DNA from: Halorubrum coriense DSM 10284
Lineage (GTDB): Archaea > Halobacteriota > Halobacteria > Halobacteriales > Haloferacaceae
DNA: 64,000 nucleotides
NCBI RefSeq assembly: GCF_000337035.1
Contig: NZ_AOJL01000037.1
Coordinates: 1-64,000, forward strand
Direction of reading: 5' to 3'
The first letter of the stretch is position 1. Every line of letters starts with the position of its first letter. Below the pieces are notes generated by a model. The model had not been told where the DNA came from, did not search any database, and saw nothing but the letters and a program-made list of their open reading frames with translations. The position numbers and the translations under genes are program-made. Shown piece by piece: positions 21,645 to 45,868 of the stretch.

Positions 21645-22664
21645 CTATCGCTCGTGGAGGAGTGTCTCGAGGTTCGATTTCACGCGCTCCCTGTCCTTCG
21701 CGTCCGTGTACCAGTCGACCGTCGCTTTGAGACCCTCTTCGAGGGAATACTCCGGCTCCCATCCCAGGATCTCTGCTGCTCGAGTGGTGTCCGCCGCGCG
21801 GTGGCGAACGCCGACGGGCTTGTCCGTCATGTACTCGATCCGTCCCGGCTCCTCGCCGAGACACTCGAATATCTTCTCGACCACCTCGTTGATCGACACG
21901 TATCGGCTAATTCCAGCGTTTACCGGCGTCCCGTCCGTGACGTTCTCCGCTGCGAGGCGAAGCGCGCGCGTGATGTCTTTGACGTAGGTGAAGTTCCGAG
22001 TCTGCTCGCCGTCACCCCATATCTCGAACGGGTTCTGCCCGGCGTACGCCTTCGCGATGAGCGCGATGATCGCGTGGGTTTCGTTCTCACGCGGGCCGTA
22101 CGCAGTGAAGATACGGACGATGCTGGTGTCGATGCCGTACTGTTCGTGATACGCCTGTAGCGACCGTTCGCCCATCAGCTTCGCCCACCCGTACACCTCG
22201 TCGGCGTACGCTCCGCCACGGGTGTCGAAATCGACCATGTCCTCGCCGAGGCGTCGTTTCTCCTGCTGTATGTCCGTCGGATACGCGCACGCGCTGGACG
22301 CGAACGTTATCCGCTCGACGCCGTTCTTCGCCGCGGACTCGTACACGGTGTTGTCCAGCGCCATGTTCGTGGCGCAGTTCGCGGGGTAGTTCGATATGTA
22401 CCCTCGCCCGCCGTGATCCGCGGCGAGGTGGAAGACCGTATCCACGCCGTCGGTGGCGCGGTCAGCGAAGCCGACGTGCTTGAGGTTTCCGTCGAGGATC
22501 TCGACCCGATCGGCCACCGAGGCGAGGTTGTCCCGCGTCCCGCTGGAGAAATCGTCGGCGACTCTGACCCGTGCCCCTTGGTCCACGAGGTCTTCGACAA
22601 GGTGGCTCCCGATGAACGACGCCCCGCCCGTGACGAGCACGCGCTCGTCGCGCCACTCGGTCAC
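21645..22664 (-). CDS. NAD-dependent sugar epimerase/dehydratase (extended SDR), GTG start
   Basis: 339 residues from a GTG at 22664 that overlaps the upstream gene's TGA (GTGA); the longer open frame to 22775 lies inside the upstream gene and has no family similarity. The Rossmann motif is LVTGGASFIGSHL. The usual catalytic YxxxK Tyr is replaced in the VYGWAKLMGE block, where Tyr-Gly-Trp-Ala-Lys keeps the YxxxK spacing. Also present are FTAYGPRENETHA and IWGDGEQTRNFTYVKD. It is a nucleotide-sugar epimerase or dehydratase with unknown substrate. It is about 30-35% like its upstream neighbour by eye, which suggests an old duplication. Confidence 0.9.
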   Translation of the reverse strand: MTEWRDERVLVTGGASFIGSHLVEDLVDQGARVRVADDFSSGTRDNLASVADRVEILDGNLKHVGFADRATDGVDTVFHLAADHGGRGYISNYPANCATNMALDNTVYESAAKNGVERITFASSACAYPTDIQQEKRRLGEDMVDFDTRGGAYADEVYGWAKLMGERSLQAYHEQYGIDTSIVRIFTAYGPRENETHAIIALIAKAYAGQNPFEIWGDGEQTRNFTYVKDITRALRLAAENVTDGTPVNAGISRYVSINEVVEKIFECLGEEPGRIEYMTDKPVGVRHRAADTTRAAEILGWEPEYSLEEGLKATVDWYTDAKDRERVKSNLETLLHER

Positions 22665-23683
22665 GGCGACCCCCCGTCGGCGGAGACCGCCGTCTCCGGC
22701 GTCGTCTCGAGTTCCCTTTCGGCCCACCGGTAGACCTCCGGGAGCCCGGCGTCGAGCGGGACCGAGGGCTCCCACTCGAGCTCGCTTTCCATCTCGGTCA
22801 TGTCACAGGCGTACTTGTCAGTTCCAGTGGGTTTCGACCGGTCGTACGCCAGCGAGAGGTCCTTGTCGCTGATCTCGATTATCCGGTTTGCGAGCTCGCG
22901 TATGCTGACCACCTCCGTCGAGTTCCCGAGGTTTATCGGCTCGCCGTCGGACTTCTCGGTCAGCACTTCGATCATCCCGTCGACGAGGTCCGTCACGAAG
23001 ATGAACCCGCGCTGTTGAGACCCGTCGCCGAACAGCTCGATGGACCCGCCGTCGGGCGCCTCGATGACCTTGCGACAGAGCGACGGGATGACGTGGCTGC
23101 TATCCGGATCGAGGCTCTCGCGCGGGCCGTAACAGTTGAATATCCGGACGCTGCTCGTCCGTAGGTCCGTGTCGGCGTGATACGCTCGACAGGCGACCTC
23201 ACCGAGGACCTTCGCCCATCCGTACGTGCTGTGTGGGTCGGCAGGGATGCCTTGGTCTTCGGAGAAGCGGTTCAGTCCGTCGTGTTCCTGTCGGTAGATA
23301 CACGCGCTCGAGGCGAAGAGGAAACGATCGATGTCGTTTATCCTCGCGGCTTCTAGCATACACTGATTCATCAGGACGCTCGGGGTGAGCCCGCCCACGT
23401 TCTCCTGTTTGATGTAGTGGACTCCGCCGACGCTTGCGGCGAGGTGGAATACGTCGTCGACACCCTCCGTGGCCTCGACGCAGCCCTTCTGCGTGGTCAA
23501 GTCGACCGGCAGCAGTTCGATACTCTCCCGGATACCAGAGAGGTTCGACACGTCTCCCCGAGAGAAGTTATCTGCGACTCTGACCTGCGCCCCGAGGGAC
23601 ACCAACTTCTCGGTCAGGAAGGAACCGATGAAGCCCGCGCCGCCGGTCACGAGAACGGTGCGATCGGCAACTCCGTCTGTCAT
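22661..23683 (-). CDS. NAD-dependent sugar epimerase/dehydratase (extended SDR)
   Basis: 340 residues and the first gene of the four-gene operon that runs down to 19039. The Rossmann motif is LVTGGAGFIGSFL. The catalytic block is STYGWAKVLGE (YxxxK), with IFNCYGPRESLDPDSSH and LFGDGSQQRGFIFVTD in the substrate domain. FASSACIYRQE supplies the catalytic Ser region. It is close to GDP-mannose/UDP-sugar 3,5-epimerase-type SDRs (GME-like) in its segment order; the exact substrate is uncertain. The C-terminal TGA overlaps the GTG of the next gene. Confidence 0.9.
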   Translation of the reverse strand: MTDGVADRTVLVTGGAGFIGSFLTEKLVSLGAQVRVADNFSRGDVSNLSGIRESIELLPVDLTTQKGCVEATEGVDDVFHLAASVGGVHYIKQENVGGLTPSVLMNQCMLEAARINDIDRFLFASSACIYRQEHDGLNRFSEDQGIPADPHSTYGWAKVLGEVACRAYHADTDLRTSSVRIFNCYGPRESLDPDSSHVIPSLCRKVIEAPDGGSIELFGDGSQQRGFIFVTDLVDGMIEVLTEKSDGEPINLGNSTEVVSIRELANRIIEISDKDLSLAYDRSKPTGTDKYACDMTEMESELEWEPSVPLDAGLPEVYRWAERELETTPETAVSADGGSP

Positions 23684-24447: not shown

Positions 24448-25185
24448 ATGGCCAAGGACGACGACACGTGGTATGACAGCATTATCGACGGATCCGGCGA
24501 CAGTAGCATGCCCTTACTAGGGACGGAGACGGGAGAGACCGACGACGGCGGATCCCCGAGTGACGGCGGCCTCACCAGACGGTCGTACCTCGCGAGCGCC
24601 GGCGCGGCGGCGGCCGCTCTCGCCGGGTGCGCGGGACGCGCGGGTCAGCCTGTCGTCACTCCGGTGACGGTGTTCGGCTTCGGTGGCGGTACGGCGATCC
24701 GACAGTCAGAGGAACCGTCGACGTCGGTCGCTGAGTCCGAACCCAACGACACCCTGGGGGCCGCGACGCCCGTGGCGCTCGGCGAGCAGATCAGCGGCGA
24801 CCTCCGACCGAGTGACAGCGACTGGTACGCCCTCGAACTGTCGAACGGACAACAGCTGGCAGTCACGTTCTGGCGCTCTTCGCAGACGGGGGTGACCGCA
24901 GTTATCGTCTACGACGCCGACGGAGTCTTCAGCAATCTGCGGTACATCAGTACGGACGAGACGGTCGCCTTCGAGGTGACCGCCGAGACCAGCGGGACCC
25001 ACCACGTTCAGGTCGTGGACACGCAATCGAGCGACGGGGCGTACACCCTGGCACTCGGAGACGCGTCGGCGACCGAGACGCCCGACTCGGATTCGGGGAC
25101 TGAAACGCCGACGCCGACCCCCATTGAGGACGACTACGGCCAACAGGGATACGGGGAATACGGCTACGGTGGTATCAAGGCCTGA
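24448..25185 (+). CDS. Tat lipoprotein with a PPC-like domain and a Tyr/Gly-rich tail
   Basis: 245 residues. An unusual polar N-region of 43 residues precedes the twin arginine (TRRSYL, Arg44-Arg45), a hydrophobic Ala stretch and the lipobox LAGC with Cys61. Residues 95-205 resemble bacterial pre-peptidase C-terminal (PPC) beta-sandwich domains: ESEPNDTLGAATPVALG, then SGDLRPSDSDWYALEL and GTHHVQVVDTQSSDGAYTL. An acidic Ser/Thr/Pro linker follows. The protein ends in a short Tyr/Gly repeat (QQGYGEYGYGG). It should be Tat-exported and anchored on the outer face. It probably binds or organises the glycan; no enzymatic motif is seen. Confidence 0.75.
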   Translation: MAKDDDTWYDSIIDGSGDSSMPLLGTETGETDDGGSPSDGGLTRRSYLASAGAAAAALAGCAGRAGQPVVTPVTVFGFGGGTAIRQSEEPSTSVAESEPNDTLGAATPVALGEQISGDLRPSDSDWYALELSNGQQLAVTFWRSSQTGVTAVIVYDADGVFSNLRYISTDETVAFEVTAETSGTHHVQVVDTQSSDGAYTLALGDASATETPDSDSGTETPTPTPIEDDYGQQGYGEYGYGGIKA

Positions 25186-25546
25186 GGGGCCGTGACGGGC
25201 GGACGATCCGGGTCGCAGTCGTAGCCCGAAGAGGCGTCCGGGCCGACACTCCGGTACCGATCCGAACGGTGGACCGTCTCGAGAGAAGACGTCGCCCGCG
25301 CCGCCAGACAGACGCCCGGAATCGCCTTCGGTATCGCCCGTGACGTGAAATCTCACTCGACGCGGCGACGGGGTTCTGCCGCAGGCGATCAACAGCGGAC
25401 GTCGGATACGAGCGAGCGTGTACGCCGGTCCCCTACTTGAGAGACGTGACGCCGATCGACCGAAGTGCGACGTCCGGATCGCGTCGGAGCGAGCGGGAGG
25501 GCGTCGAGCAGAAGTTCTAATCCGTTCGCTCTACACAACGGTACAC
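25186..25546. other. 361-base gap, no gene seen
   Basis: No coding frame on either strand shows family resemblance. The end next to the epimerase holds a weak TATA-like TTCTAA at 25515-25520, about 27-32 bases before the ATG at 25547. This supports that ATG as the intended leaderless start. Confidence 0.5.
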
Positions 25547-26458
25547 ATGTAGAACAAACGCGTCCTCGTCACCGGCGGCGCGGGCTTCATCGGATCGAAC
25601 CTCGCGAATCGCCTCGCGGCCGACAACGACGTGATCGCGGTCGACGACACCTACCTCGGCACGGAAGAGAACCTCGACGACGCCGTCGAGTTCGTCGAGG
25701 CCTCGGTCGTCGACGGCGACTTCCCCGCCGACGTCGATGTCGTCTTCCACCTCGCCGCGCTCTCCTCGCGGAACATGCACGAGTCCGACCCCCAGCGCGG
25801 TTGCCGCGTCAACGTCGAGGGGTTCGTCAACACCGTCGAACGCGCCCGCGAGGCAGGCTGTGAGACCGTCGTCTACGCCTCCACCTCCTCGATCTACGGC
25901 AGCCGCACCGAACCCTCGCCCGTCGACATGGACGTGGAGGCCCACACCGCCTACGAGGCGTCGAAGCTCGCCCGCGAGCGCTACGCCGAGTACTACGCCA
26001 ACCACCACGAGATGAGCGTGGCGGGGCTCCGCTTCTTCTCGGTGTACCAGGGCTTCGGCGGCAACGAGGAGCACAAGGGCGAGTACGCGAACACGGTCGC
26101 GCAGTTCGCGGACGCCATCGCCAACGGCGAGGCCCCGGAGCTGTTCGGCGACGGCAGCCAGACCCGCGACTTCACGCACGTCTCGGACGTGGCGCGCGCC
26201 TGCGAGCTCGCCGCCGACGAGGAGTTGACGGGCGTGTACAACGTCGGCACCCAGGAGGCGTACACGTTCAACGAGATGGTCGCGATGATCAACGACGCGC
26301 TCGGCACGGATATCGACCCGGAGTACGTCGAGTGCCCGTTCGACGGTTACGTCCACGACACGATGGCCGACTACTCGACGTTCCGCGAGGCGACCGGCTG
26401 GGAGCCCGAGATCGGCTTCGAGGAGGGCGTCGAGCTGGTGTGCGAGCCGTACCGGTAG
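25547..26458 (+). pseudogene. Sugar epimerase (extended SDR) with a TAG stop at codon 2
   Basis: Read from the ATG at 25547, the second codon is TAG (25550-25552) and the rest of the frame is intact to 26458. The sequence after the stop is NKRVLVTGGAGFIGSNLANR, a complete SDR N-terminus with the NAD-binding TGGAGFIG. The catalytic YEASK, FFSVYQGFGGN and LFGDGSQTRDFTHVSD follow, with the family's normal end. The only in-frame later start is GTG at 25631, which would delete the whole NAD motif. A single C-to-T change in an ancestral CAG would explain it. Either the gene is off, or translation starts in an unusual way, or the base is wrong. The family is a common haloarchaeal UDP-glucose-4-epimerase-like protein. 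Confidence 0.8.
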
Positions 26459-26507: not shown

Positions 26508-27512
26508 TCAGACGATCGAGGCGACCGCCTCGGAGAGCGACTCGTCGCCGTCGGCGACGTCGCGACGGTAGTGCATGTACACCGCGCCGAGCGGCGGCTG
26601 GACGACGTACGCCAAGGCGATCGGCAGCACGGCGGTCTCGGGCACTGCCGGCGCGGCGACGACGACCGCCACCGCGATCGAGAGGTTGCGCATGCTCGTC
26701 GCGTACACGAGCGCGACGCCGCTGGCCGCGTCGCGGAGCACGCGCCCGAGCCCCGCCCCGACGGCGAGTAAGAGCGCGTAGAACGCGACGATGGGGAGGA
26801 TCGTGACCCCCGAGGCGACGGGGTCGGCGAGGATGCTCTCGGAGCGCATCGCCATGGCGATGAACACGATCAGCATGACGCCGAAGGAGCTGATTCCGCC
26901 GAGCGTCGGCTTCAGCCGTTCGAACCCGTCTTTACCCAGTCGGTCGAGCAACACCCGCCGCGTGAGGGTGCCGGCGACCATCGGGACGACGACCACGCGG
27001 GCGAGCTGCCCGTACAGCGCGGTGGGGTCGAAGCCGACGCTCGCCGGGATCAGCGCGGCGAGGTACGTCGGCAGCACCGCGACGGCGACCAGCAGGTTCA
27101 CCGCCATCGCCACGAGCGCGGACTCCAAGTCCCCGTTGGCGAGCCCGGTCCAAGCGGCGGTCATGCCCGAGGTCGGGATGAGCGCGATGAAGTAGAGCCC
27201 GACCGCGTAGCCGACGCTCCCATCGAAGAACAGCCGCGCGAGCCCGACCGCGAGCAGCGGCGCGACCCCGAAGTTGACGAGGAGGCTGAGCGCCACGACC
27301 CGCGCGTGGCTGCGGACGTTCACTACCTCTCGGAGGTCGATGTTGATCATCATCGGGTAGATCATCAGGAACAGCACGGGGACCACCGCCGACTGGAGGA
27401 GCGTCTTGAACGACGCCCCGGCGAACTGTCCGACGAGTAACCCCGTCGCCAGCGACCCGACGACGACGTAGATCAGGTTCGATTTGATACCGGTGAGGAA
27501 CCGCCGTATCAT
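26508..27512 (-). CDS. ACR3/bile-acid symporter-superfamily permease
   Basis: 334 residues with about ten hydrophobic spans. PVLFLMIYPMMINIDL and LIPTSGMTAAWTGLANGDLE match the ACR3 arsenite-efflux branch of the BASS superfamily, where the second region normally reads PCTAMVxVW. The conserved ACR3 Cys is replaced by Thr here, so arsenite transport is uncertain. It may move another anion or organic acid. A perfect inverted repeat lies 9-31 bases before the ATG, implying tight local regulation. Confidence 0.75.
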   Translation of the reverse strand: MIRRFLTGIKSNLIYVVVGSLATGLLVGQFAGASFKTLLQSAVVPVLFLMIYPMMINIDLREVVNVRSHARVVALSLLVNFGVAPLLAVGLARLFFDGSVGYAVGLYFIALIPTSGMTAAWTGLANGDLESALVAMAVNLLVAVAVLPTYLAALIPASVGFDPTALYGQLARVVVVPMVAGTLTRRVLLDRLGKDGFERLKPTLGGISSFGVMLIVFIAMAMRSESILADPVASGVTILPIVAFYALLLAVGAGLGRVLRDAASGVALVYATSMRNLSIAVAVVVAAPAVPETAVLPIALAYVVQPPLGAVYMHYRRDVADGDESLSEAVASIV

Positions 27513-44779: not shown

Positions 44780-45190
44780 GACGCCGCCGAGTTGCGTCGC
44801 GTTTTCCGGGGAGTCCGGGAGCCACAGCCGCGCGGCTGTGCGTAATCGCTTGTAACACGGCGATCGGCACGAACACTCCCGAAGCCCCAGCCGCAAGTCC
44901 CACACCGCAACCGCAGCCTCGCGCCTCCCCAGCCTCGTCGGGCGCGTCCGTCGGACTCCCTCCGGTCGTCCTCGTCGCGTCCGACTCCAGCGAGGGACCG
45001 ACGGTCCCTCCGGCAGCCGGCGCGACGCGCCGGCGACCTCGCACGCGCACCTCGCGACCGCCGAGGGCGGCCGCTCGGCGGCGCGCGCCGACCGCGCCGC
45101 GGCGTCTGCCGGGTATAAACCCCGCGTCGCCCTCTCTCGCTGCCGGGCGCGGGCGTCTTTTATACCGAGGTCGTCAATGACTGACCACAC
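44780..45190. other. 411-base gap with a structured, repeat-like GC-rich segment
   Basis: No gene. The segment contains four perfect inverted repeats between 44823 and 45081 and two TATA-like boxes (TATAAA at 45114-45119 and CTTTTATA at 45157-45164). The second box serves the DJ-1/PfpI gene at 45191. The composition, rich in CCTCGCGCC and CCCAGCC runs, looks like an interspersed haloarchaeal repeat. Confidence 0.55.
44823..45081. repeat. Cluster of four perfect inverted repeats, probable interspersed repeat
   Basis: The repeats are CACAGCCGC/GCGGCTGTG with no spacer (44823-44840), GAGGGACC/GGTCCCTC with three bases between (44992-45010), GCCGGCGCG/CGCGCCGGC with one base between (45016-45034), and CCGCCGAG/CTCGGCGG with eight bases between (45058-45081). 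Such density is not expected by chance alone, even at this GC content. It could be a mobile repeat or a structured untranslated RNA. Confidence 0.5.
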
Positions 45191-45868
45191 ATGACTAGCG
45201 CACTGTTCGTCGTGAGCGAGGAGGGGTACTGGGCCGAGGAGTGTATCGAGCCGCTGACGACGCTCGAATCGGAGGGCGTCGACGTGACCGTCGCGACGCC
45301 GTCGGGGTCGCCGCCGGTCGTCGACGAGCGCTCGCTCGACCCCGAGGCCGCGGGCGGCGAGGAGCGAGTCGCGGAGCTCCGCGAGGTCGACGAGGAGCAC
45401 CCCGAACTGAACGATCCGGAACCGATCGCGACCGTCGACGCCGACGGGTACGACGCGGTCGTCTTCCCCGGCGGTCACGGCACCGTCTGGGACGTGAACC
45501 AGGACCGCCACGCCCGCCAGCTGCTCCTTGACGCGGTCGCGGGCGAGGAGAGCGTCGCGCTCGTCGTCTGCCACGCGGTCGGCATCCTCGGGTTCACGCG
45601 CGAGGCCGACGGGACGCCGCTCGTCGAGGGGCGCTCCGTCACCGGCTTCCCGAACGACTGGGAGGACGGCATCGTCGACGACCACGACGTGATGCCGGAC
45701 GGTCGGAAGCTCCCGTACTGGGTCGAAGACGAGGTCCGGCTGGCGGGCGCTGAGTGGGACGCCGAACTCGACGCCGACACCAGCGTCACCGTCGACGGCG
45801 ACCTGATCACGGCCCGCGGCCCGGGCTCCTCGGCCGCCGCGGCCGCGACGCTGCTCGACGAACTGTAA
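45191..45868 (+). CDS. DJ-1/PfpI (class I glutamine amidotransferase-like) protein
   Basis: 225 residues. The nucleophile elbow is ALVVCHAVGIL with Cys127 followed by His128, and the conserved Glu is in GYWAEECIEPL. AVVFPGGHGTVWDVNQD is the glycine-rich loop of the Hsp31/PfpI group. The members act as glyoxalases, deglycases, chaperones or proteases; Cys-His with the upstream Glu fits a DJ-1/Hsp31-type glyoxalase or holdase. A TATA-like CTTTTATA box lies about 27-34 bases before the ATG. Confidence 0.92.
   Translation: MTSALFVVSEEGYWAEECIEPLTTLESEGVDVTVATPSGSPPVVDERSLDPEAAGGEERVAELREVDEEHPELNDPEPIATVDADGYDAVVFPGGHGTVWDVNQDRHARQLLLDAVAGEESVALVVCHAVGILGFTREADGTPLVEGRSVTGFPNDWEDGIVDDHDVMPDGRKLPYWVEDEVRLAGAEWDAELDADTSVTVDGDLITARGPGSSAAAAATLLDEL

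Follow-up and report, generated by a model that had tools for sequence, protein, structure and literature searches.

In-frame UAG codons occur in archaeal genes of methanogens, where UAG is recoded as pyrrolysine, and a review of archaeal recoding describes stop-codon readthrough only for selenocysteine and pyrrolysine (PMC8211752). A different kind of interrupted gene is the early single-nonsense pseudogene, in which one 5' stop breaks an otherwise intact frame in a single genome while the relatives remain intact. The gene described here lies in the haloarchaeon Halorubrum coriense DSM 10284, within the 64,000 nucleotides (contig NZ_AOJL01000037.1, positions 1 to 64,000) that we refer to as the window, and shares features with both: it carries an in-frame TAG as its second codon, and in all other respects its frame is intact. 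Unlike the pyrrolysine genes of methanogens, it does not have its UAG at a conserved active-site position, its genome yields no pyrrolysyl-tRNA synthetase over cut-off, and TAG is freely used as a stop. It is set apart from early-nonsense pseudogenes only by the codon-2 position of the stop in a probably leaderless gene. We consider the most likely explanation, with a probability of about 0.75, to be a real and very recent CAG-to-TAG nonsense mutation that renders the epimerase null in an otherwise preserved gene.

The start site and reading frame

An ATG at 25547-25549 is followed directly by TAG at 25550-25552, after which the frame is open from AAC at 25553 to a TAG at 26456-26458. The codons after the internal stop are AAC AAA CGC GTC CTC, and the translation begins NKRVLVTGGAGFIGS. 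The first-pass annotation had described an ATG, a TAG and then a complete epimerase, and sequence and translation agree with it exactly. The features of the locus are as follows.

25503..25521 (+): diverged BRE/TATA promoter (GTCGAGCAGAAGTTCTAAT), as expected for a leaderless transcript; its position corresponds to that of the cgaaaccgaagcgataat-type element in relatives; position weight matrix (PWM) score 6.9 bits
25547..25549 (+): conserved start codon ATG, shared by each of the 64 other distinct starts among homologues
25550..25552 (+): TAG stop at codon 2, a private nonsense change; relatives mostly have CAG or CAA
25553..26458 (+): extended-SDR NAD-dependent epimerase/dehydratase frame, otherwise intact, 301 codons plus TAG stop; PF01370 E 1e-46; at most 95% amino acid identity to Halorubrum orthologues; no decay
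25631..25633 (+): next in-frame start, GTG; its product would lack the Rossmann NAD-binding motif
26508..27512 (-): SBF/ACR3-like transporter, the intact syntenic downstream neighbour; about 94% identical and adjacent in H. ezzemoulense (G010)

The GTG at 25631 is the first in-frame ATG, GTG or TTG past the stop, and initiation there would drop residues 1-26, including the GGAGFIG motif, which bears out the earlier statement that no other in-frame start retains the NAD-binding motif. CAG is one transition from TAG. Besides codon 2, six of the remaining 301 codons are also one transition away from a stop, so the location of the stop at codon 2 needs no special explanation.

The frame matches the whole domain of Pfam PF01370 (residues 4-232 against profile positions 1-240 of 240), and both the GxxGxxG and YxxxK motifs are present, as GGAGFIG at residue 8 and YEASK at residue 134 when counted from the AAC codon. 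Residues 3-301 align with the solved structure of a UDP-glucose 4-epimerase (PDB 4zrm). In this full-length match and in its motifs the protein resembles extended-SDR NAD-dependent epimerase/dehydratases of the GalE-like kind. It reaches none of the NCBIfam equivalog cut-offs (the best score is 165 for TIGR02197, where 274.6 is required) and is therefore assigned at the level of PF01370, not of a substrate. Extended-SDR sugar-nucleotide epimerases of this kind are widespread in haloarchaea, and the gene is the Halorubrum orthologue.

Codon 2 and selection on the gene body

Among 65 distinct homologue start sites, the window gene is the sole one with a stop at codon 2; the other 64 have an ATG followed by a sense codon. 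An erroneously chosen start is ruled out by the identity of this ATG in all 64. Their second codons are CAG (35), AAC (14), CAA (6), GAC (3), CAC (3), CAT, CGA and GAG, so that glutamine is encoded in 41 of 64, and this comparison backs the derivation of the stop by a C-to-T change from CAG proposed in the first-pass annotation. A search of viral contigs for an ATGTAG start found none. The stop is of the kind that marks a nonsense pseudogene, being absent from the orthologues and abolishing the full product, with no alternative start that keeps the NAD motif.

The body of the gene is undamaged, as had been noted from the sequence. All 103 columns that are invariant in 62 homologues are kept, and only two residues are private to the window protein, both at variable columns. 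Its median pairwise dN/dS is 0.154 and falls inside the 0.08-0.22 spanned by the other orthologues, although this is a weaker measure than a branch-specific test based on ancestral sequences. By dN/dS and retention of invariant residues, then, no relaxed selection was detected on the body, a signal that older pseudogenes should show but a very recent one need not. As the 301 remaining codons carry no trace of relaxed selection, the stop is either very recent or an error.

Promoter and upstream edge

In the relatives, a conserved element such as CGAAACCGAAGCGATAAT lies about 30 bases 5' of the ATG, and the window has GAGCAGAAGTTCTAAT at this place. The relatives' element resembles the haloarchaeal BRE/TATA, which suggests a leaderless mRNA; leaderless transcripts make up 72% of the protein-coding transcripts of Haloferax volcanii (PMC4983044). 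Because the relatives carry this BRE/TATA about 30 bases before the ATG, the epimerase mRNA is probably leaderless and without an alternative start. The TTCTAA that had been cited in support of the ATG is at 25515-25520, or -32 to -27 relative to the start codon. Its placement is right, but the promoter as a whole gives weaker support than was supposed, being the poorest BRE/TATA match in the genus: a leave-one-out PWM gives 6.9 bits, against 11.0-30.4 in other Halorubrum, and of the 40 sequences scored only those of a Halonotius and the uncultured archaeon A07HR67 are lower.

The second new observation at this edge is that DNA similarity to all relatives ends about 10 bases or less from the start codon. 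Among 52 Halorubrum genomes this left flank is unique, no second strain sharing it, and the region varies widely from species to species. The promoter may have been weakened or exchanged before the stop arose, making that stop tolerable.

Neighborhood and paralogs

Upstream of the epimerase is a glycan region encoding glycosyltransferases, a flippase-like protein, a sulfatase-like protein and two more SDR epimerase/dehydratases, at 21645-22775 (-) and 22661-23683 (-). This side of the gene also includes a 245-residue secreted or lipoprotein-like protein (24448-25185, +), in which a twin arginine, the string AALAGCAG and a Tyr/Gly-rich C terminus were recognized by eye; it has no match in Pfam or NCBIfam, and the 51 other Halorubrum genomes searched give weak, local matches at best, none better than E 1e-5. 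On the downstream side, the SBF transporter and genes beyond it keep synteny with H. ezzemoulense and others. Comparison of about 12 right-hand neighbors with their relatives revealed no disruption, so in this compared region the assembly shows no visible excess of errors or of pseudogenes. A second apparent stop, at 45170-45190, was rejected, as it is upstream of the shared ATG of that gene at 45191.

Of 52 Halorubrum genomes, 47 encode a homolog at E <= 1e-60, the best ortholog being 95% identical; among the 46 genomes of good quality, 3 give no match to the epimerase. Genome searches for paralogs in the 69 contigs of the draft H. coriense genome identified an intact full-length copy, 76% identical and starting ATG GAC, at C55:38318-39220. 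A C-terminal fragment of another epimerase copy is located at C58:10508-10773. Other Halorubrum carry truncated or stop-bearing extra family copies (G051:C81:18064-18789, G007:C11:1186-1776 and G012:C10:78491-79108); together with the three genomes lacking a match, these indicate that loss is not unusual in the epimerase family. The intact paralog and the absence of the gene from 3 of 46 genomes make its loss look tolerable.

Alternative explanations for the codon-2 stop

The first-pass annotation had also raised rare initiation or readthrough, which finds no backing here. No pyrrolysyl-tRNA synthetase is encoded in the genome over the cut-off (PylS_Cterm best 26.5 bits against 178), and no suppressor tRNA with a CUA anticodon is among the 44 tRNA hits of the genome search, a list that is incomplete, with Cys and Trp tRNAs, for example, missing. 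TAG terminates 15 of 42 long open reading frames in the window, this epimerase included, and is therefore not avoided as a terminator. On these grounds pyrrolysine insertion or amber suppression was rejected, and rescue of the gene by recoding is unlikely. That the protein is still made, by readthrough of the UAG or by initiation at or beyond the stop, would account for the lack of decay in the gene body, but it is highly improbable given these results, the lack of any homolog conserving the stop, the absence of ATG, GTG or TTG before residue 27, and the restriction of described archaeal readthrough to selenocysteine and pyrrolysine. It is more doubtful still that a leaderless AUG-UAG mRNA is translated by readthrough or non-canonical initiation with the codon-2 stop acting as a translational control.

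The abrupt end of homology near the start codon and the unique left flank could also be read as a recombination junction bordering a replaced glycan island, with the original start removed and ATG TAG left at the seam. This is scarcely credible, as CATG-AG lies precisely where the relatives have it, and the spacing from TAATCC to the ATG is 23 bases, as in H. yunnanense; a break inside codon 2 would need a chance re-creation of matching bases and spacing. Alignments ending at the left flank are, moreover, common where flanks vary so widely between species. A consensus error in the draft assembly, with CAG as the true codon and a functional gene, is a less likely explanation than mutation that nonetheless deserves weight. 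The change is an isolated single substitution, purifying selection on the rest of the gene is normal, the gene is present in most Halorubrum genomes, the genome is a draft of 69 contigs, and an undamaged body is equally expected from an error in a functional gene. However, deep consensus assemblies seldom contain isolated substitution errors, the other compared genes of the window show no disruption, and an error would leave the most divergent promoter of the genus unexplained. The original shortlist of a very recent mutation or a sequencing error was the right one, and of the two we consider the mutation more likely.

In the favored nonsense-mutation reading, a single C-to-T change would have converted codon 2 from CAG, or Gln as in most relatives, to TAG in one strain. 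Translation would begin at the 5'-terminal AUG of the probably leaderless mRNA and terminate immediately, and as there is no other start codon in the next 26 codons, no functional enzyme would be expected from the gene. The loss may be tolerated through the intact paralog elsewhere in the genome, or the glycan step concerned may be dispensable.

Conclusions

The significance of this stop is local: it is an ordinary event that adds nothing new on decoding and implies no new decoding mechanism. An effect on virus sensitivity and mating has been proposed for variation in the glycosylation clusters of Haloferax (PMC5867893). If the stop is real, H. coriense DSM 10284 is missing a sugar-nucleotide enzyme encoded at the border of its variable glycan locus, and its surface glycans could change as a result.
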